Assembly: GCA_017563185.1 (NCBI GenBank)
Contig: JAFXIL010000039.1
Span: 1 to 49,672, forward strand
From: Kiritimatiellia bacterium
GTDB lineage: Bacteria > Verrucomicrobiota > Kiritimatiellia > RFP12 > UBA1067
Direction: 5' to 3'
Length of the DNA stretch: 49,672 bases
The position numbers were made by a program, and so were the translations under genes. Shown here piece by piece: positions 126 through 10,410 of this stretch (within the stretch, counting starts at the first letter, position 1; each line of letters begins with the position of its first letter). The notes below the pieces were generated by a model that was given only the letters and a program-made list of their open reading frames with translations, was not told the origin of the DNA and made no database searches.

Positions 126-3100
126 ATGAATTTCGTGAAAAAGACAGTACTCGGCTTCCTTGTTGCGCTGCTCTGCGGCGCGGCGTGGTGCGGCGTAGCC
201 GCGAACGGCCATGCGGGCGCAAGGCGCGTGAACCATCTCACGCGCGTAAGCAGCCACGGCCGCATCGCCGTGAAGGCTGAGGGCAACCGGTTCTCCGAGA
301 GCGCAAAGGTCTCCTTTTCGCGCACACGCGCGGACGGAGTGAAGCGCAGGATCATGGAAGGCCTTGCGAAGAAGCGCCGTGGCGGTCCGCGCCTTCTCGG
401 TGCGGCGAAGGAGCCTTCCTCTCGCAAGGAGCCGTCCGTTCTCGCGATGTACGACATCTCGATCGAGTCGGACGGCGCCAAGTGGCAGCCCGCAGCTGGC
501 GAACCCGTCCAGGTTGACGTGACCCTCGACGAGCCGGTGGCCATAACGCCCGGCGCGACGCTTGGCGTTGCTCACCTTGCGGACGACGGCACGGTGGAGG
601 CGCTACCCGCATCGCGCTACAGCTTCACCTACAACGCCGCGAAAACGGCGGTCACGGCCTTCTCCTTCTCCGCCGAGGGCTTCTCCGTCTATGCAATCAC
701 CGAGGGCGATGACCACACGGCCGACAGCGATCCCGCCCGCCGAATCTACCAGTTCTATACGCTTGACGAGTCGGATAGCTACGTTCCATTCTACTTCGTC
801 GCCGACGACAACACACGAACCTTCCGCCAGATCGTCAAGGACGGGCAGAGCCTCGCGCGTCCCGAGATGGTGTCGTCCAAGGGGCGCACCTTCATGGGTT
901 GGTATCTCTTTGACGGCACTGACTATGCGGCCGCCCCGTTCGACTTCTCGAAGCCCATCACGTTTGACGCGAACGAAACCGGCGAGCACGTGTACACTCT
1001 CCGCGCCCGCTTCGGCGATGTGGGCTATGTGATCTTCCATGACCAGTCCATGACCGTGGGCGCCGACAAGAAATGGCCCATCACCGTCGTCCGCCGCGCG
1101 CCGCTCACGAAGAACGGCGACGTGCTGGAGGCCACGGTAGAGATCGACGACGTGACGGTGACGTATGACGAAAGCGCCAATAACAACGCCGGGGAAGAGG
1201 AACAAGAGAACTCGGCGCCCAAGATGATCTTCCGTGGATGGTCGAGAACGCCAGTCGATCCCGGTGAACCGAAGGACATACATGGAGACGACGTGGTGCG
1301 CGTTGAATCTCCGCTCACATTCACCCGTGTGGAGGGCGACAAGGTCAGGCCGGTCGATCTCTATCCAATTTTTGTGCCGATCCACTGGCTGTCATACCAG
1401 TCCGCCAAGACCGGCGAGGGCGCTTCCTACTGCCCGCCCGAGTGCCTCTACGAGGACGAGGGCAAGGACGAGCTTCCCCAACCCAACCGCACCGGCTATA
1501 CCTTCGCCGGCTGGTACACGGAGGCAGATGGCGGCGTGAAGGTGGGCAATGCCGACGGCACGCTGAACACCTCGGCCGACCTCACCGGCTGGGGCGGATA
1601 CTTCGATGGCGGCAAGCTGAAGCTTCGTGCCGACGTGAAGCTGTACGGCCACTGGACGCCTACGTTGACGCGGTACTCCGTCGTCATCTGGCGGCAGAAG
1701 GCTACCGACGATCCTTATCTTCCGAATGCGGAGAAAAAGTATGACTTTGCCGAGAGCATTGAACGCACTGACCACTATGCCGAAGATGTTGTTGACGTTG
1801 AGTCAGATCCGTACAAGAACTACGCTGGGAGCGGGAATTATGTCGGTTTCCACTATAGCCACTGTGATGGGTCTGCAATCGTGAGAGGTGACGGCTCAAC
1901 CGTCCTTAACGTGTACTACGACCGCAACGTCCACACATACAGATTCTTCCCAACCACAACAGCAGGTACCCTCACTCCAACGTATAGCTACTCATACACG
2001 CCAGTTCCCTGCAGTTTCACTTACACAGAACACAATTGTAACGTCACGTACACGACATATGCGAGCACTTATACTTATGTTTCTTATAGCTATGTGTACA
2101 CCAAAACTGAAACGTCAAGAGTTCGGCGTAGTAACAGTTCAGCAAATGCGGATGATAATATGCTTAATAACCAAAAAACGATTGGCGGAATTGCAGTTAC
2201 TTATTCGGGTACTACTTATTACATAAAATATGACAACTCTTGGTATCGTCTTAATAATGATAGTGGTAGTGGCAGTGATTTGTATAACAATGCGAAGACG
2301 ATTACGGTCGGCAATAATAGATATTATACATACACTAAGGATACAGATGGGACTTTTACGATTGGGAATGAAGTTATCGATCAAACATATTTGAACACTT
2401 TGAACGGGACTAATAAGAAAACCGTATCTGGGTACAGCATCTCTTATTATAGTAGTTGGGGGTGGTATTCGACAACTTATTATTGTATTGAGATTGATGG
2501 CAGGTGGTATCAAATATCTTCAAACGATCAGGATGTTTATAATAATGCCACAGCCATTAATCGGACGCCGAATACGACAACTGGGTCGTTCACCCTTGGG
2601 GCTTCGTCGGATGCGACTACTGCATCCGCCCTTGAAGCAGGCAAAAAGAGTGTAGGCGACTATGAGGTGTCTACCTATAACAATACCTACTACATCAAGA
2701 TCAATGGTGCGTGGCGTCAGATTGCGACGAATGGAGAGACTGTTTACAACAATGCTACTTCCATTACCGTTACGCCGAACGCAAATGACAGCACACAGTC
2801 ATTTGCCCTTGGGGCGATTGCCGGTGCTGCCGATGCAGCCACGTTGGAGTCTTCTGCATGGAAGAAGACTATAGGTGGTAATGATGTTTCTTACATTGGA
2901 AGCGGAGCCAGCCGTACTTATTACGTGAAGTATGAGGGCACATGGTACCAGATTCCGTCCTCTTACGGAAGCATCGTGTATGATGATGCGACGGTCATTG
3001 CTATTACGTCGAATGCAGCCAATGCGTCCTTCAACCTTGTGGAGACTGCGGTTGCTTCAGACGTAGCCGCTTTGGATTCTGCCGATTGGGAAAAGACGGT

Positions 3101-6100
3101 TGGTGACTACGAGGTGTCGTGCATCGGAATCGGCACCAGCCGGACTTATTACGTGAAGTCGGCGGACACTTGGTACAAGATTCCTGCCGCGTACGGAAGC
3201 AGCGTGTATGACAATGCGACCGAGATTACAGTCGGAACGCCTTCGTCTCCAGTCAGTGGCACATTTACCGTCGGCACTACTGCCGTTGACAATTCGACAG
3301 ACATTGATACGCTTGAGTCCAACAAACGGACTGCGGGAACTTTCGATGTTTCCTACAATGGCTCGACATATTACATCAAGCTCGTAAAGGACGGCAAGTG
3401 GTATCAGATCACAGGTAACAATGGCAGTGTCGTCTACAACAATGCCACAGACATTACCGTAGCTATGACTTCGACTCAGCAGGGGTACTTTGACATCACG
3501 GCTTTGTACGGGGCTAACATCAGCAGCTACTTCTCCATGTATATCAGCGATGACGCATTTGCAAGCAGCGGAACATTGTATTCTTTTGATGTCTCCAGCC
3601 CTAATTCTGCTCCTTATACTGAGCGACTGGTTGCTCTCGAAACCATGGATGATTATGATATTGTATTCAAGCGTAACACCTACAACTATACTGGCGGCAC
3701 AATCAACTACTATGTAGAGGTGGACAGAGAGGAATATGACGAGACTGAGTCCGAGAAAAGGTCGACTTTCAACGGCAAATACTATGTGCTCTACAAGAGC
3801 ATTGCGCATAACTTTAATCATTTGACTTATGAGGAGGACTATCATCCTCTCACTGGATATTCAAGAGATAAGTCGCATGCATCTCCCAACACTTTTGGTG
3901 CAAATAACCAGGCGAGTATCCCGAACAGTGGTGTCAACAACCTCTATTACGATCGAGAGTCGAAGGAAATCGAATTCGTAGATTCCTATGGTAATCTAAC
4001 GCTTGATTCGATGTCTATGTTGTACACGCAGAAGCTCGCCCCGAAGGTCGATGAACTCTTCCCGAATGGCCCCACGTCTAGACGTGAAGGTTATACGTTC
4101 ACCGGCTGGTATGCGGATAGTTCCTGCACTACCCGCGTGTTCTTCGAGGAGGATGAAGAGTACAACAACTACACAAAAAACAAGGTGCTCTTTGACAGAG
4201 TACCGGCTTACAATCTCCAGATTTTCGCCGGATGGGAGACGGAGTGGTATCTGATCCAGATTGATCCGAACGGCGGACAGCTGTCGGAGACCGACTCCAC
4301 ATGGTTCTGGGAGCCGTACGGCGGCGAGAACGTCTATGAATACAACACCGCTTCGCGCAGCTTCATACCGTCGGCGAGCGGCGAGTGGTTCTACGTGGTC
4401 AAGAACCGCGACTACTACAAGAGCGCGCTTGCCGGCGAATACGGCGACCAGGGCGACTTCGACAAATTCGTGGCCGATACCTGGAGCGACTTCGAGGATG
4501 ACAATGGAAAGACCATTCTCGGCGACCGCCGCGCGTACTACACGAAGGACGTGAACGATCCAGGCATCACGGACTTCACCCGATACGAGAACCGTGTCAA
4601 TGCATACCGCTACTCCGGGTGGTACGAAGTGCTGATGGACGATAACGGCAACGAGATCGGCGAGGCGCTGTACAAGTTCGGGCAGAAGGTCACGCACGAC
4701 ACCACTCTGCGCCTGCATTGGAAGAGCCTTGGAACGTACGAGCTGCACTACGTCGCCGGCGATGGCACGATAGACCGCCTGGACGACAACGAGGAACACA
4801 CCTTCCAGGAGGCTCTCGACGTCGCGGTGTTCAACGACCATTCCGACCTCGTCGTCACCCGCACCGCCACTGCACCAGAGGGCAAGTATTTCGTGGGCTG
4901 GACCGTCCGCAACGGCGATGGCACCGTTTACTTCCCCGGTCAATCCTTCGTGCTGGATGCAATCTACAGCGAGGCCGACTCGGCCTCCAACGTCCGAGTG
5001 GTCTATCTGGACGCCGTCTATGAAACCATCAGGACCGTGAGCCTCACGCTGGACGTCAACGGCAGCTCGCTCGCGAACGCGTCCATAGGCGACGACGCCA
5101 CCTCTCTCACGCTCGCCCATCCGGATCCGGCCGACAAATTCACCTCGGGCACCTCCGACACCACCCGCACGGTCTCGGGCCTCCCGAACAACGCCTACGG
5201 CCACCTGAGCGACGGCACGGGGTACACCTGCACCATCGGCGACGAGACGCTCACGTTCCTCGGATGGAACACGCGCAAGGACGGCACGGGCACGCACTTC
5301 GCGCCCGGCGCGTACGTGGGCATCGACGCGCTCGACACGCTGGACGGCAGCGGCGCCAACACGCTCTACGCCGAATGGGCCGTGAACGTGTACTTCGACA
5401 AGAACAACACCCAGTACACGTGGGAGCCGGGCTCTGCCGACGCCTGGAACGCGAATGAGTTCACGTACATCGCCGAAGGCGCCAACGCAGAGCGCTACAG
5501 CCAGCAGACGACGCTCAACGGCCACGTCCGCAACCCCGGCGTGCTGCACGACATCGTGGACGAGGAGACCGGCAAGCCGATGATGTTCGACTTCTGGAGC
5601 ACGAAGCGCTATCAGGAGACCGCGGACCTCGAGGCGTACAACTTCGAGGAGACCCCCGTTGAGGGGCCGCTCGTGCTGTACGCCGCATGGCGCGACCTCA
5701 TCGAGGTGCCGCTGCGCGTGGTGGACGCCTCGGCGGAGGAGATCGTGGAGCACAGCGAGCTCATCGACAACGGGGGCTGGCTAACGCAGCTGTCGATCCA
5801 GGTGGGCAACACCACCGATGTCTCGTTTAACGATTCTCCCACGCAGTACGTGCAGCTGCCCAGCGAGGGCAACTACCAGTACGCCTTTGCGTGCGTCGCA
5901 ACGTCCAAGGACGACATCTCCGAAGGGCGCAAAATCAGCCGCGTCTACTACAACACCTCAGCGCGCAGCGTCTATGTGGAATACGCCGACAGAACCAGCG
6001 AGGCGCTTCCGAGCGAGATGAAGGTGTTCATGGTGTACTTCAAGAACCCGAGGCTCATCAACATCGGCTATCGCGAGATGGGCCTGGACGGGTTCACGAC

Positions 6101-9100
6101 GGTGACGGCCAAGACCACCGCGCCCACGGAGACGAGCGTGGGAGCGGAGGCCCTGAACGTGGCGGAAAGCCTGCTGGCGACGCCGCTCCAGTATCCCGAG
6201 AGCGGATCGTACCAGCACTACGCCTACGCGCTCGGCGACCCCGACGCGACTGCGGCCGCGCAGCTGCACTACATCACCGAGACGAAGACGAGCGACGGGT
6301 CGCGTCCCGCGCTCCAGATCAGGAACACATGGCGCGGGTTCGAGTACTCCTCTGACGGTGGTACGACGTGGACCCGCTACGGGTTCGACATGCAGCTCTA
6401 CGTGGTGTACTTCACCGCCCAGCCCACGATCATCACCCTCCGCGAGGAGACCATCGGCACCGCGGAAGACATCAGTGCCGAGTTCACGTACGACGTCGTC
6501 ATCTCGGGCGGTGGGTCGTCCGAGTCCTCGACCGTCACGCTGAGGAATGGCGAGGCGGAGTCGCTCACGCTGTTCGCGAGCTCGTCCGTGCAGCAGACCA
6601 TCTCCATAACGCAGAGGCCGAAGGATGGCTTCACGACGACGATCGGAATAACTGAGGACGACGCCGGCGTGAACGGCACGGCCAACGACTTCGTGTACAC
6701 CGCGACGGCCGCCACGAGCGGCGGCGCGGAGACGGTGACCTACACCAACAGCCGCGGACTGCTGCCGCTTGAGCTGAACGTGGCGTTCGGCAGCGGCGGA
6801 GAGGTGACGAACGTCAACGGCGAGTACCGCACCGACGCCGAGAGCGGGTACACGCTGAACGTGCCGATCCAGGCGGGCGATCCCGCGCCCACGCCTTTCT
6901 CCGTGACGGAGCAGGCGCTGACGGGCCGCAACAAGGTCTATGCCGAGGGCACTGCGGCGGATGGGCTTCTCTCCAAGGAGGTCGGCGCCACGCACGTGTT
7001 CGTGGGCGTGTGGTACGGTCGCCCGGCGCAGGCCGATGGCGAGGCCGAGGAGGGCGACAAGGTCGAGCTCAAGGGGCGCGTCACGTCCGTCGGCTTCGTG
7101 AAGCTTGCGCGCGAGGACTACTACGGAATCTGCCTGAACGACGATCCAGAACTTCCGCTTGGAAGCTACAAGCTGTACTACGTGTACAGCGAGATGCCGA
7201 GAATCCACTACGTGAAGGAGGGGGCGAACGGCACGCTCGTGAAGCTTGAGACGTTGGCGTATCAGGGCGTGGCGTATGAGAACGTGATGCCGCAGGATTC
7301 GATGATGTCCGTCGGTGAGGCGGAAGCCCTGTCCGTGCAGTTCGGCGGAAACGGCGTGAGCTCCGAAGTCGTCCACGTGCCGTTCATCCTCGACGGCTCC
7401 CATCCGGGATCGCTGGATGCGTTGACCATCGCGGCAGGTCCGGAGAAGGATGGCTCAGTCAAGGAGAGCGACTTGGACGGCCAGACGGTCATGACCTCCG
7501 ATCCCCTGAAGCTTCAGATCAGGGACGGTCTGGTGAAGTGGAGCCTGAACGGCGAGACGTGGCATGACTTCTCCGGCTCTCCCGCCGTGTACGTAATCTA
7601 CCGCGAAGTGGGCTACAACCTCACGGTGAAGATGACGGCCATCGCGAACGAGACCGACAAGGCGCAGGCGTTCACCGTGTCCATCACCTCCCCGGCGCTC
7701 GCCGACGGCGTCTCCTACGAGATCGACAAATACAGCGTGGACAGCGTCACGCCGACGGTTGGCTCGGGAACGGGCACGATCACGCTTTCGCTCAAGGACG
7801 GCGACGAGGTGACAATCCGCGCGCTGCAGAGCGGAAGCTACTCCATCGTCGAGACGCTGGTGGACCGCTTCACGCTGACGCACGTCGAGGAGGGCGGGAA
7901 CTACATCGACGATTCGCAGCTGATCAAGAACGCCGACGATGCGCTGATCGGCGTCAACGTGGTCATGGAGAAGAACCGGTCCGCTGAACTCGTGAACGAG
8001 AAGAAGTACAGGGTCAAGTTCGTGGACGAGGACAACATGACGGTGCTTAAGGATGAAGTGACCTACGCGTTCCAGACCACGGCGGACGAGGTCGCAAAGC
8101 CGGAAGACGATCCCACGAAGCCGATGAACGACGAATACACCCTCCTCTACCGCTTCGAGGGCTGGTCGGAGGACGGCAAGACGGTCACGGACGTGGCTGA
8201 CGTCACCAAGGACGTCGTCTACAGGGCGAAGTACCGCGAGATCGAGGTTCCGAAGCTCAGGCAGCGCGCCGTCGCGCTCGACCTCGTGATCAGGCTTGCC
8301 GAGCCTGAAGAGACCGACGCGGCCGAGAGGAAGCGCAAGTACGAGGCCAAGCTCATCGACGCGCTTGCCGCGGCGGGCGTCACGCTGAAGGACACTGGGT
8401 TCTTCCACGAGAGCGACACGGCGTACGACTACCTCAATGAGATGCAGCCGAACGGACTGCGCCTCTGGGAATGCCTGCGTACCGGCACGCCGGTAGAACA
8501 GAAGCTCCTCGACACGGCTCTCGGCGAAGGCGCGAACCAGTTGTCGCTTACAATGGCGGCCGCTCCTGTTGGCATCAAGGACCTTGGCTATGATGTGTAT
8601 CATGTGCTGCGCAAGTACAAAGAAAACGGCGAAAGCGTAACCTGGGATGACGTCAGCGCTCGTGTGGAGGGCGAATATCCCAACTTCGAAAAGCCCGCGT
8701 TTGCAATAGACCTTCTTGATGAAGAAGGAAAGTCCAAGAACGCATCGGGCTTCTACCGCGTCGTCACTCAGATCGTGCCGAAGTACAACACGGAAGAAAT
8801 CATCAACGAAATACCGTCTCCAAACATCATCGCCGTACTGGAGGTGAACAGCGGGCTCAAGAAGACCATGACGGCCATTCCGTGGGTTGCGCTTCCGAGC
8901 GATCCCGACGCGGCGGAGCTGCCGTCCATCACCGTCAACAACTACGTCCAGACCGGCCAGCTCAGCGCGAGCGACGCGGTCTACTCCATCGACGCCAATG
9001 GCATCTACGAGAAGTGGATTTTGGGTGGCGGCGACGGCCAGCAGGGCGCGCTCACATGGACGTCTGCTACGACGGTCGCGAATGGCTCAAGCGGAGAGAC

Positions 9101-9590
9101 GGTGGTGCAGGATGCGCCCGATCCGGCCACGCACGGTCTCAGCCGCGGCGCCGCCACGTGGGTGGAGCGCGTAAGCGAGGGCAAGCCGTACTTCCTCGTC
9201 GGGCAGTATGCGCCCGGAAACATCACCGTGAACATCGCCGGAGGGTCCGACACGGTTCCGGCCAGCACGATAATCGCGAACCCGAGCATCAATGCGCTCC
9301 CCGTCAACTCGATCGCCTGGGGCGACAACCCCACCACCAAGGACACGATCGAGGTGTACAACGACAAGAACATCTGCTACAACCTGCAGTGGAACAAGAA
9401 GAAGAAGGAGTGGGGCCGCTCCGCAAAGGTGTGGGACGAAACCTTCCAGGCATACCGCAGCCAGTGGCAGAACGACTTCACCATCCCTGCCGGCACCGGC
9501 GTGAGGTACAAGCGCTGCGGAGGTGCGTTCACCGTAACGGTCAGCGCCGACCAGGTCAAAGAAACCGTCCAGTCGGGCACGGGCGAGTAA
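126..9590 (+). CDS. Giant secreted InlB-type (Listeria-Bacteroides) repeat surface protein
   Basis: This 3154-residue protein starts with a signal peptide (MNFVKKTVLGFLVALLCGAA). InlB B-repeat-like units marked by GWY/GW...W motifs recur around residues 257, 459, 1324, 1495, 1587, 1709, 1821 and 2677. Between residues about 684 and 1129 lie six tandem units of about 75 residues rich in Tyr, Asn, Ser and Thr, in a stretch visibly lower in GC than either flank. No LPXTG, PEP-CTERM or autotransporter barrel is visible; the C-terminus is a beta-type domain ending SGTGE. InlB repeats are common in bacterial adhesins, so a surface adhesin or structural role is likely but unproven. The start is supported by the strong Shine-Dalgarno. 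It is followed 30 nt later by a PEP-CTERM protein gene that may be co-transcribed. Confidence 0.85.
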   Translation: MNFVKKTVLGFLVALLCGAAWCGVAANGHAGARRVNHLTRVSSHGRIAVKAEGNRFSESAKVSFSRTRADGVKRRIMEGLAKKRRGGPRLLGAAKEPSSRKEPSVLAMYDISIESDGAKWQPAAGEPVQVDVTLDEPVAITPGATLGVAHLADDGTVEALPASRYSFTYNAAKTAVTAFSFSAEGFSVYAITEGDDHTADSDPARRIYQFYTLDESDSYVPFYFVADDNTRTFRQIVKDGQSLARPEMVSSKGRTFMGWYLFDGTDYAAAPFDFSKPITFDANETGEHVYTLRARFGDVGYVIFHDQSMTVGADKKWPITVVRRAPLTKNGDVLEATVEIDDVTVTYDESANNNAGEEEQENSAPKMIFRGWSRTPVDPGEPKDIHGDDVVRVESPLTFTRVEGDKVRPVDLYPIFVPIHWLSYQSAKTGEGASYCPPECLYEDEGKDELPQPNRTGYTFAGWYTEADGGVKVGNADGTLNTSADLTGWGGYFDGGKLKLRADVKLYGHWTPTLTRYSVVIWRQKATDDPYLPNAEKKYDFAESIERTDHYAEDVVDVESDPYKNYAGSGNYVGFHYSHCDGSAIVRGDGSTVLNVYYDRNVHTYRFFPTTTAGTLTPTYSYSYTPVPCSFTYTEHNCNVTYTTYASTYTYVSYSYVYTKTETSRVRRSNSSANADDNMLNNQKTIGGIAVTYSGTTYYIKYDNSWYRLNNDSGSGSDLYNNAKTITVGNNRYYTYTKDTDGTFTIGNEVIDQTYLNTLNGTNKKTVSGYSISYYSSWGWYSTTYYCIEIDGRWYQISSNDQDVYNNATAINRTPNTTTGSFTLGASSDATTASALEAGKKSVGDYEVSTYNNTYYIKINGAWRQIATNGETVYNNATSITVTPNANDSTQSFALGAIAGAADAATLESSAWKKTIGGNDVSYIGSGASRTYYVKYEGTWYQIPSSYGSIVYDDATVIAITSNAANASFNLVETAVASDVAALDSADWEKTVGDYEVSCIGIGTSRTYYVKSADTWYKIPAAYGSSVYDNATEITVGTPSSPVSGTFTVGTTAVDNSTDIDTLESNKRTAGTFDVSYNGSTYYIKLVKDGKWYQITGNNGSVVYNNATDITVAMTSTQQGYFDITALYGANISSYFSMYISDDAFASSGTLYSFDVSSPNSAPYTERLVALETMDDYDIVFKRNTYNYTGGTINYYVEVDREEYDETESEKRSTFNGKYYVLYKSIAHNFNHLTYEEDYHPLTGYSRDKSHASPNTFGANNQASIPNSGVNNLYYDRESKEIEFVDSYGNLTLDSMSMLYTQKLAPKVDELFPNGPTSRREGYTFTGWYADSSCTTRVFFEEDEEYNNYTKNKVLFDRVPAYNLQIFAGWETEWYLIQIDPNGGQLSETDSTWFWEPYGGENVYEYNTASRSFIPSASGEWFYVVKNRDYYKSALAGEYGDQGDFDKFVADTWSDFEDDNGKTILGDRRAYYTKDVNDPGITDFTRYENRVNAYRYSGWYEVLMDDNGNEIGEALYKFGQKVTHDTTLRLHWKSLGTYELHYVAGDGTIDRLDDNEEHTFQEALDVAVFNDHSDLVVTRTATAPEGKYFVGWTVRNGDGTVYFPGQSFVLDAIYSEADSASNVRVVYLDAVYETIRTVSLTLDVNGSSLANASIGDDATSLTLAHPDPADKFTSGTSDTTRTVSGLPNNAYGHLSDGTGYTCTIGDETLTFLGWNTRKDGTGTHFAPGAYVGIDALDTLDGSGANTLYAEWAVNVYFDKNNTQYTWEPGSADAWNANEFTYIAEGANAERYSQQTTLNGHVRNPGVLHDIVDEETGKPMMFDFWSTKRYQETADLEAYNFEETPVEGPLVLYAAWRDLIEVPLRVVDASAEEIVEHSELIDNGGWLTQLSIQVGNTTDVSFNDSPTQYVQLPSEGNYQYAFACVATSKDDISEGRKISRVYYNTSARSVYVEYADRTSEALPSEMKVFMVYFKNPRLINIGYREMGLDGFTTVTAKTTAPTETSVGAEALNVAESLLATPLQYPESGSYQHYAYALGDPDATAAAQLHYITETKTSDGSRPALQIRNTWRGFEYSSDGGTTWTRYGFDMQLYVVYFTAQPTIITLREETIGTAEDISAEFTYDVVISGGGSSESSTVTLRNGEAESLTLFASSSVQQTISITQRPKDGFTTTIGITEDDAGVNGTANDFVYTATAATSGGAETVTYTNSRGLLPLELNVAFGSGGEVTNVNGEYRTDAESGYTLNVPIQAGDPAPTPFSVTEQALTGRNKVYAEGTAADGLLSKEVGATHVFVGVWYGRPAQADGEAEEGDKVELKGRVTSVGFVKLAREDYYGICLNDDPELPLGSYKLYYVYSEMPRIHYVKEGANGTLVKLETLAYQGVAYENVMPQDSMMSVGEAEALSVQFGGNGVSSEVVHVPFILDGSHPGSLDALTIAAGPEKDGSVKESDLDGQTVMTSDPLKLQIRDGLVKWSLNGETWHDFSGSPAVYVIYREVGYNLTVKMTAIANETDKAQAFTVSITSPALADGVSYEIDKYSVDSVTPTVGSGTGTITLSLKDGDEVTIRALQSGSYSIVETLVDRFTLTHVEEGGNYIDDSQLIKNADDALIGVNVVMEKNRSAELVNEKKYRVKFVDEDNMTVLKDEVTYAFQTTADEVAKPEDDPTKPMNDEYTLLYRFEGWSEDGKTVTDVADVTKDVVYRAKYREIEVPKLRQRAVALDLVIRLAEPEETDAAERKRKYEAKLIDALAAAGVTLKDTGFFHESDTAYDYLNEMQPNGLRLWECLRTGTPVEQKLLDTALGEGANQLSLTMAAAPVGIKDLGYDVYHVLRKYKENGESVTWDDVSARVEGEYPNFEKPAFAIDLLDEEGKSKNASGFYRVVTQIVPKYNTEEIINEIPSPNIIAVLEVNSGLKKTMTAIPWVALPSDPDAAELPSITVNNYVQTGQLSASDAVYSIDANGIYEKWILGGGDGQQGALTWTSATTVANGSSGETVVQDAPDPATHGLSRGAATWVERVSEGKPYFLVGQYAPGNITVNIAGGSDTVPASTIIANPSINALPVNSIAWGDNPTTKDTIEVYNDKNICYNLQWNKKKKEWGRSAKVWDETFQAYRSQWQNDFTIPAGTGVRYKRCGGAFTVTVSADQVKETVQSGTGE
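2175..3510 (+). repeat. Six tandem ~75-residue coding repeats in a low-GC island
   Basis: Units begin at about 2175, 2415, 2643, 2862, 3090 and 3324. Each follows the pattern K-[KT]-x-G-x-[YDF]-x-V-S, then TYY[IV]K, then WY[QKR]I, then VY[ND][ND]AT, closing with a T/S-rich segment. The later units are closer to each other than to the first two. AT-rich codons dominate from about 1740 to 4200, unlike the GC-rich codons on both sides. Confidence 0.85.
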
Positions 9591-9620
9591 GGCGTAGGGC
9601 AAGATAGGGGATTAAGACAC

Positions 9621-10205
9621 ATGAAGACAGTTCGCAAGACATTCCTTCTGCTTACGGCGTTCTCATTGTTCGCGAATGCATTTGCCACGGATCCCGAGAT
9701 CCTCTGGTGGCGTGTCCAGGACGAGGACGATCCGGAGTCTTTCGAGAACGTCAAGGTGACCGCGCTGGACGGCTCGCAGGTCAACGCCGTTGACCTTAAA
9801 TACCAGGGCAAGAGCGTGAACGCGGCGCGCCTTCACGTTGTGGGCGGAGGTGTTGACACCTACCTGCCGTTTGCGGATCCCGACGTGTCGGGGATGAGCC
9901 AGACCTTCGCCCCGCTGCCCGGTGACTTCTACAACGACCTCAGCGCCTATACGGGCGCGGCGTACTCGTTCGCGGTCGAGCTGGGCAACTGGCAAGACGA
10001 CAGCTGGACGATAATGGCGACTTCGGGGTATGTCACGTTTGACACGCTGAAGAACGACATGCACCATGTCCACAACTGGACGGACATCACCACGAACATC
10101 GCCATGCCCTGGCTGCCGTCCTTCACCGTGCCCGAGCCGTGCAGCGGCCTGCTGCTTCTGCTGGGCGGCGGCCTGCTCGCGCTGAGGCGCCGCAGGAGAG
10201 TGTGA
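9621..10205 (+). CDS. PEP-CTERM sorting-domain protein
   Basis: A 194-residue exported protein with an N-terminal signal peptide (MKTVRKTFLLLTAFSLFANAFA). Its C-terminal tail has VPEP, a hydrophobic Leu/Gly helix and an RRRRR end. This three-part tail is the recognition signature of exosortase systems, which cleave near the PEP motif and pass the protein to the cell surface or extracellular matrix. The middle (about residues 25-165) matches no family I recognise. It lies 30 nt after the giant InlB-repeat gene and could share its transcript. No exosortase gene lies in this window. The sorting call is strong; the specific role is unknown. Confidence 0.8.
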   Translation: MKTVRKTFLLLTAFSLFANAFATDPEILWWRVQDEDDPESFENVKVTALDGSQVNAVDLKYQGKSVNAARLHVVGGGVDTYLPFADPDVSGMSQTFAPLPGDFYNDLSAYTGAAYSFAVELGNWQDDSWTIMATSGYVTFDTLKNDMHHVHNWTDITTNIAMPWLPSFTVPEPCSGLLLLLGGGLLALRRRRRV

Positions 10206-10210
10206 GAGAG

Positions 10211-10238
10211 TTTCGGGTTTCGGGTTTCTGGTTTCGGG
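10211..10238 (+). repeat. Four 7-bp tandem repeats (TTTCGGG)
   Basis: Four consecutive heptamers: TTTCGGG, TTTCGGG, TTTCTGG, TTTCGGG. They lie in the 280-nt gap after the PEP-CTERM gene, 6 nt past its stop codon. No function is evident; replication slippage is the likely origin. Confidence 0.8.
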
Positions 10239-10349: not shown

Positions 10350-10410
10350 GGCTCCCGGCACTGGCGCGTCATTGTGAAGCGACAAGAGTGTCGCTTCCCC
10401 GATGGGAGCC
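10350..10410 (+). repeat. Nested palindrome (cruciform-like) in the intergenic gap
   Basis: An outer 7-bp arm pair (GGCTCCC 10350-10356, GGGAGCC 10404-10410) encloses a perfect 9-bp hairpin (GAAGCGACA 10376-10384, loop AGAG, TGTCGCTTC 10389-10397). No T-tract follows, so it is not a canonical intrinsic terminator. It could be a REP-like element or a transcript-end structure for the upstream genes. Confidence 0.7.

Follow-up and report, generated by a model that had tools for sequence, protein, structure and literature searches.

The window, as the whole stretch of 49,672 nucleotides from contig JAFXIL010000039.1 of a Kiritimatiellia bacterium (GCA_017563185.1) is called here, has as its first gene, at 126-9590, one open reading frame (ORF) of 3154 codons, which encodes a giant protein with InlB B repeats. 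Within this gene lies a low-GC island of tandem repeats. The protein is probably a giant surface adhesin that rumen Kiritimatiellae have in common with rumen Bacillota, and the island probably forms the variable portion of a binding segment that can be exchanged. Comparison of orthologous sequences gives good support to the view that a whole block of the gene has been exchanged between relatives; that this block binds a ligand is inferred.

The protein matches PF09479 (Listeria-Bacteroides / InlB B repeat) in 3 stretches, with 58.8 bits against a Pfam cut-off of 27. It also matches PF24547 (DUF7601; 28.6 bits, cut-off 27) and NCBIfam TIGR02543. The GC content of the gene is 0.630 at 126-1709, 0.457 at 1710-3968 and 0.618 at 3969-9590, and the twelve lowest-GC segments of 1323 bp in the whole 49.7 kb, taken in 100-base steps, all overlap 1710-3968. 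GC at four-fold degenerate sites (GC4) is 0.49 in the block (n=368) and 0.87 in the flanks (n=500; Fisher p 2.6e-35), so the drop is present at third positions too and goes beyond amino-acid composition. Along the island, GC climbs from about 0.36 to 0.5. An earlier sequence-only reading had described a low-GC repeat island with AT-rich codons, in the same frame as the GC-rich InlB-repeat gene around it. That description holds: GC along the gene is not uniform, and the frame is open throughout. The limits it gave, 2175-3510, are too narrow for the low GC, which extends over about 1710-3970.

The closest relative of the window is genome G013 (locus L043). In blastn the two are 95.8% identical over 39-1710 and 95.3% over 3969-10236, but just 103 bp align between these flanks (1845-1947, 79.6%). 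Identity inside the block is 36% with gaps scored as mismatches; the window's block measures 2258 bp, that of L043 1508 bp. Beyond the repeat units, the divergent low-GC stretch continues for about 450 bp on the left and 480 bp on the right. In the flanks, 0-11 of 94-113 four-fold sites differ per 200-residue segment, about 5%, whereas in the block most of the few comparable sites differ (e.g. 11 of 13 and 7 of 11). With synonymous sites saturated in this way, the divergence of the block must be much more ancient than that of the flanks, and faster protein change alone cannot account for it.

Phylogenetic trees and pairwise comparisons used 15 of 17 orthologue rows, since L055 and L059 aligned poorly; the block tree had 14 rows, with G044 also left out. 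Both flank trees join the window's genome (G000) to G013 (support 100/98 and 100/100), whereas the tree of the block after the insert joins G013 to G032, which belongs to another genus (100/98). Approximately unbiased (AU) tests, whose groups were chosen after the identities were known, reject G000+G013 in the block (p 0.002) and G013+G032 in the flanks (p 2.9e-49 for the N-terminal and 1.5e-4 for the C-terminal flank). The sequence-only reading had proposed a recent acquisition or expansion of a repeat domain inside an existing adhesin. The foreign-looking segment in a surface protein stands, the recent expansion does not, and the object concerned is a 2.26-kb block of two modules. Direct donation of the block from Bacillota was also considered and rejected, because G000 groups with the Kiritimatiellae rows when the block is used for the tree (87/92).

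The pattern recurs independently in rumen Bacillota. The orthologues of Butyrivibrio LC3010 and VCD2006 (L049 and L050) have amino-acid identities of 0.78 and 0.75 in the flanks and 0.27-0.32 in the post-insert block. The L050 block groups with the L053/L054/L056 type (100/99) and the L049 block with the L046/L052/L057 type (99/98), and the AU test rejects L049+L050 in the block (p 2e-71). L057 and L056 are a further case, with 0.58-0.64 in the flanks and 0.25 in the block. Two of the four closest pairs show clear exchange. Across 105 pairs, the Spearman correlation is 0.83 between the N- and C-terminal flanks and 0.48 between flanks and block. Further identity dips appear in the longer L049/L050 protein near L049 residues 600-800 and 1000-1200, so the block is not the sole variable place of the Butyrivibrio pair. 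Of 17 orthologues, 14 have a lower GC4 in the block than in the flanks; the difference is strong in G000, G013, G032, G014, G044 and L057, while in L052 the two values are equal to two decimals. The low GC of the block fits repeated import from lower-GC alleles.

Several results weigh against this reading. Of the other two among the four closest pairs, L053 and L054 show no exchange (block 0.69, flanks 0.68-0.70), and G014 and G005 are intermediate (0.54 in the block vs 0.68-0.71). Identity in the block is also a little below that in the flanks when the pairs are distant (0.351 vs 0.387; 75 pairs, G044 left out), which means that a somewhat higher rate of protein change plays a part. L054, L055 and L059 (3 of 17) have no lower block GC4. 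G044 and L057 have a low block GC4 with zero units, so low GC accompanies the block rather than the repeats alone. No donor of the block was found, and the units and the post-insert segment have differing nearest relatives, which makes the block itself a mosaic. The comparison is one of species-level genomes, and most of the Kiritimatiellae sequences are metagenome-assembled genomes (MAGs).

Surface proteins often evolve fast. Accelerated evolution of the block without replacement, through diversifying selection or hypermutation, would agree with this and with the slightly lower conservation of the block even in distant pairs. It is nevertheless an unlikely explanation of the saturated synonymous sites beside flanks that differ so little, of the abrupt edges, and of a tree position that changes with strong support. 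A search of the window's own genome for reverse transcriptase PF00078 also gave no match (the control was positive in 3 of 14), and thus no sign of a diversity-generating retroelement of this type. A slightly smaller chance is left for an assembly artefact, in which the segment of another strain or species was joined into a MAG gene. The window's genome is a draft of 206 contigs and the GC of the block differs, as this would suggest, but the frame is open across both edges, G013 and G032 each have a block of their own at this position, on separate contigs, and the same pattern is found in the two Butyrivibrio genomes, whose titles carry no MAG mark.

The repeats themselves were compared with those of relatives. 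The window has six units in tandem at 2166-3488, each of 55-82 residues and typically about 75. The six units of about 75 residues that had been read from the sequence were all found, with the last cut short. One Trp is invariant in all 16 aligned units, which come from three genomes, and V, Y, I and A are nearly invariant. A profile recovers all six window units at E 2.5e-20 to 1.5e-29, partly by construction, as it was built from the units of the three genomes including these six. Alignment showed that the units are diverged, with pairwise amino-acid identities of 30-48%. They are closer to their equivalents in G032: unit 3 shares 66-73% of its residues with G032 units 3-4 and unit 6 shares 69% with G032 unit 7, and the two arrays are roughly collinear. 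From the low identity within the array and this match by position it follows that the array predates its present arrangement and has not been amplified recently in the window. A tandem-repeat search of the DNA detected none across the unit region, which again marks the repeats as old.

A recent expansion in place of one repeat, making the gene a length variator of the Periscope type, would account for the 0-7 units among relatives, and one more recent duplication did occur in G032, where units 4 and 5 are 82% identical. For the window this is very improbable. The recent expansion put forward in the sequence-only reading is already contradicted there by units that resemble G032 more than each other, by the lack of a detected DNA tandem repeat, and by low-GC divergence that extends well beyond the units on both sides. 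Cassette switching in the style of antigenic variation, with silent copies elsewhere in the genome as the source, does produce whole-block replacement at a fixed place, but we give it equally little weight, since the repeat region matches only once, with no second copy, in the window's own draft genome (97.4% complete by tool), in which no recombinase search was made.

Unit number varies widely between relatives. The repeat region matches 4 of 97 related genomes, its own included (E <= 0.001); one of the four, G058, matched weakly, in a frame interrupted by stops, and was not counted as a relative. With the 3' flank as query, the protein was found in 10 of the same 97. Seven genomes are readable at the insertion site: G032 has 7 units, the window 6, G013 3, G014 1, and G044, G005 and G011 none. 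G011 covers the site on two frames, and G056 does not cover it. G016, which is more distant, has a different Tyr-rich insert there. The variation in length that had been suggested is thus present, between relatives of different species, and it is not the case that these all have six units as diverged as the remainder of the protein. Within the class, the unit profile has matches in 4 of 345 genomes, solely at this site. None of 397 genomes in the Butyrivibrio family and none of 295 in the Ruminococcus order gave a match, but these searches were run without a positive control and so show little.

A first contig scan with the repeat region gave 15 pattern matches, none of which was confirmed. 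A broader scan for the protein gave 43 loci, of which L043-L063 were read and L064-L085 left aside. The Kiritimatiellae loci come from the rumen and omasum of goat and the omasum of roe deer, and two further loci are titled Lentisphaerae or Verrucomicrobia. The rest of the fifteen best loci (33-43% identity) belong to Lachnospiraceae, Butyrivibrio, Oscillospiraceae, Ruminococcus, and Clostridiales or Clostridia. The protein core is thus common to two phyla of gut, largely rumen, bacteria. Nine Bacillota sequences (L046, L047, L049, L050, L052, L053, L054, L056 and L057) have a short loop with zero units at the site. L060, L061, L062 and L024 have long Tyr-rich inserts at the same hairpin, seemingly unrelated to the 75-residue unit.

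The insertion site was located with an AlphaFold2 model of the insert-free orthologue L046, predicted together with ten relatives (362 residues; predicted local distance difference test (pLDDT) 78.2, predicted template modelling score (pTM) 0.59), and the folds of the window's modules were taken from it by homology. In VIA-align, L046 residues 1-84 (module a) align with the MUB structure 3i57_A at Z 7.0, which is under the tool's safe level, with a root-mean-square deviation (rmsd) of 2.4 over 70 residues; the corresponding window region, 1680-1970, has no Pfam match. Residues 82-159 (module b) resemble the beta-grasp folds of SUMO and UBX (Z 5-6), and residues 244-344 (module c) align with the InlB B-repeat 2y5p_C at Z 8.9 and rmsd 1.6 over 73 residues. 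The insertion point is a five-residue turn between L046 strands 85-91 and 97-104, with pLDDT of about 87-92. The repeats are therefore predicted to sit in the beta1-beta2 turn of module b, a predicted tight hairpin. The block edges are at window residues 529 and 1282. The left one directly follows strand 1 of module a, and the right one lies within the first strand of module c. In PMC8900821, strand beta2 and the adjacent loop are suggested as the functional site of the InlB B repeat.

The sequence-only reading had said that the units match no familiar domain, and searches agreed, giving no confident known domain for a single unit. A search of PDB sequences with the units returned only antibody heavy chains (best E 8e-4), which were read as chance because the displayed matches cross the V-J junction. 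PHROGs gave a best E of 0.01, with each family matched by just 1 of the 16 units, and phage records gave no match. Flg_new is absent from the Pfam families listed for any of the 16 units up to E 1, so by this search the unit is no InlB B repeat. Units 4 and 5 were modelled together (pLDDT 77.9, pTM 0.51), giving hairpins that alternate with helices, with strands and two helices per unit. With this model, Foldseek found no match at E <= 0.001, and VIA-align found no confident match among solved structures (best Z 4.0). Two candidates were set aside: a likeness to the Ralstonia fucose lectin (RSL), a run of hairpin matches at Z 2.4-2.9, was treated as a common arrangement, and a propeller was dropped because the unit number varies from 1 to 7. 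Big_14 (PF20251) is the nearest approach to a known family. Two multi-unit stretches exceed its whole-protein cut-off of 27 (window 2640-3509 with 30.8 bits, L045 2934-3785 with 30.1), but only 4 of 16 single units match at all (best E 0.042), the longer stretch 2160-3509 does not match, and the modelled unit alternates hairpins and helices. We regard the unit as the founder of a new family that may be distantly related to Big_14.

The comparisons show that the block of modules a and b was replaced whole between relatives with flanks still 95-96% identical, and that the predicted beta1-beta2 turn of module b holds 0 to 7 copies of the unit. Incoming alleles may recombine homologously with the conserved flanking modules, because both edges lie in sequence common to the relatives. 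The block would be the part that contacts the ligand, and the repeats an extended, partly redundant arm for binding or spacing. Exchange could then alter the attachment target, or allow escape from recognition by phage, protozoa or the host, and the low GC would mark descent from another allele pool rather than recent duplication in place. A bolder proposal, which we hold only tentatively, is a system of interchangeable heads across two rumen phyla. Recombination, anchored where the first strands of neighboring modules are conserved, would trade the two-module binding block between species, the hairpin would be a landing site for new repeat domains, and attachment specificity would spread in the community independently of the carrier gene.

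Several known systems are similar in part. InlB B-repeat proteins (PF09479, TIGR02543) share the repeats found here over cut-off and the fold of module c in the orthologue model, but the 75-residue unit matches neither family, and literature searches found no report of a repeat array in the beta1-beta2 turn or of block exchange. The MUB/MucBP modules (3i57, SraP, YwfG) resemble module a of the orthologue model at a Z below the tool's safe level, without a sequence match, and fold alone gives no mucin binding. Periscope Proteins, as described in PMC8201768, have repeats that are highly similar in DNA and protein, form a stalk and vary in number between relatives; the window's units vary in number too, but they are diverged, form no detected DNA tandem array and lie inside another domain's hairpin. 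PMC12863079 describes Giant1-3 of Apilactobacillus as very large surface proteins with intragenic recombination, exchange between genera and a beta-solenoid ligand domain. The first three features resemble the present case, which differs in its beta-grasp modules, its one swapped block and its homologues in two phyla.

This is a concrete, testable case of modular exchange in a giant surface protein from a gut lineage that has hardly been studied; the insertion turn and the exchange edges are defined, and the repeat family is new. Homologues in Butyrivibrio, a cultivable genus, would let exchange and binding be measured. If the block sets attachment, rumen specificity would move between species faster than the surrounding genes. 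The features are collected in the following table.

Features of the giant gene and its downstream neighbor, in window coordinates.
Feature	Position	Strand	Basis
Giant secreted protein, 3154 aa, InlB B repeats	126..9590	+	ORF; signal-peptide-like N-terminus; Pfam; NCBIfam TIGR02543
Module a, predicted beta-grasp, MUB/SraP/YwfG-like fold	1671..1931	+	Homology with L046 model residues 1-84
Exchanged low-GC block (modules a, b and linker)	1710..3968	+	blastn to L043; GC4; trees; AU tests
Strand beta1 of module b (HTYRFF), left edge of insertion site	1932..1949	+	Alignment A7; DSSP strand 85-91 of L046 model
Tyr/Thr-rich leader of insert	1950..2165	+	Direct reading; absent or different in relatives
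Repeat unit 1	2166..2411	+	Unit alignment and profile
Repeat unit 2	2412..2642	+	Unit alignment and profile
Repeat unit 3	2643..2861	+	Unit alignment and profile; 73% identical to G032 unit 4
Repeat unit 4	2862..3089	+	Unit alignment and profile; modelled together with unit 5, pLDDT 77.9
Repeat unit 5	3090..3323	+	Unit alignment and profile
Repeat unit 6, truncated, 55 aa	3324..3488	+	Unit alignment, profile; 69% identical to G032 unit 7
Strand beta2 (ITALYG...), rest of module b, linker	3489..3965	+	Alignment A7; L046 model strands from 97-104 on
Module c, InlB B-repeat; first strand EIEFVDS; end approximate	3966..4250	+	L046 model; Pfam Flg_new on L046 263-315
Small PEP-CTERM protein	9621..10205	+	NCBIfam TIGR02595, 24.1 bits vs cut-off 16; 98% identical in G013

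The location of the protein at the surface is supported by context: an LPXTG anchor in L046 (over cut-off), a prepilin-like N-terminus in L049 (under cut-off), and the PEP-CTERM protein encoded next to the giant gene. ORFs with similar tails adjoin the giant gene in L045, L051, L024 and L025, where neighbor ORFs were taken as the longest non-overlapping frames and some are wrong-strand shadows. The PEP-CTERM gene is conserved downstream of the giant gene in Kiritimatiellae, which suggests a two-gene unit. The Bacillota homologues L049, L050 and L047 start with a prepilin-like sequence, and in Butyrivibrio the adhesin core may be borne on a pilus.

Right after the PEP-CTERM gene is a short tandem run of the 7-base unit GTTTCGG (10210-10238). 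An interspersed palindromic element follows at 10376-10406 (+), with arms GAAGCGACA and TGTCGCTTC and then CCCGATGGG. It has 15 copies in the window's genome at <=2 mismatches, against 0 for a reversed control, and the copies are clustered on some contigs with a spacing of about 66-85 bp. Pieces of the 10376-10406 stretch are also present in G013, G014 and G005.

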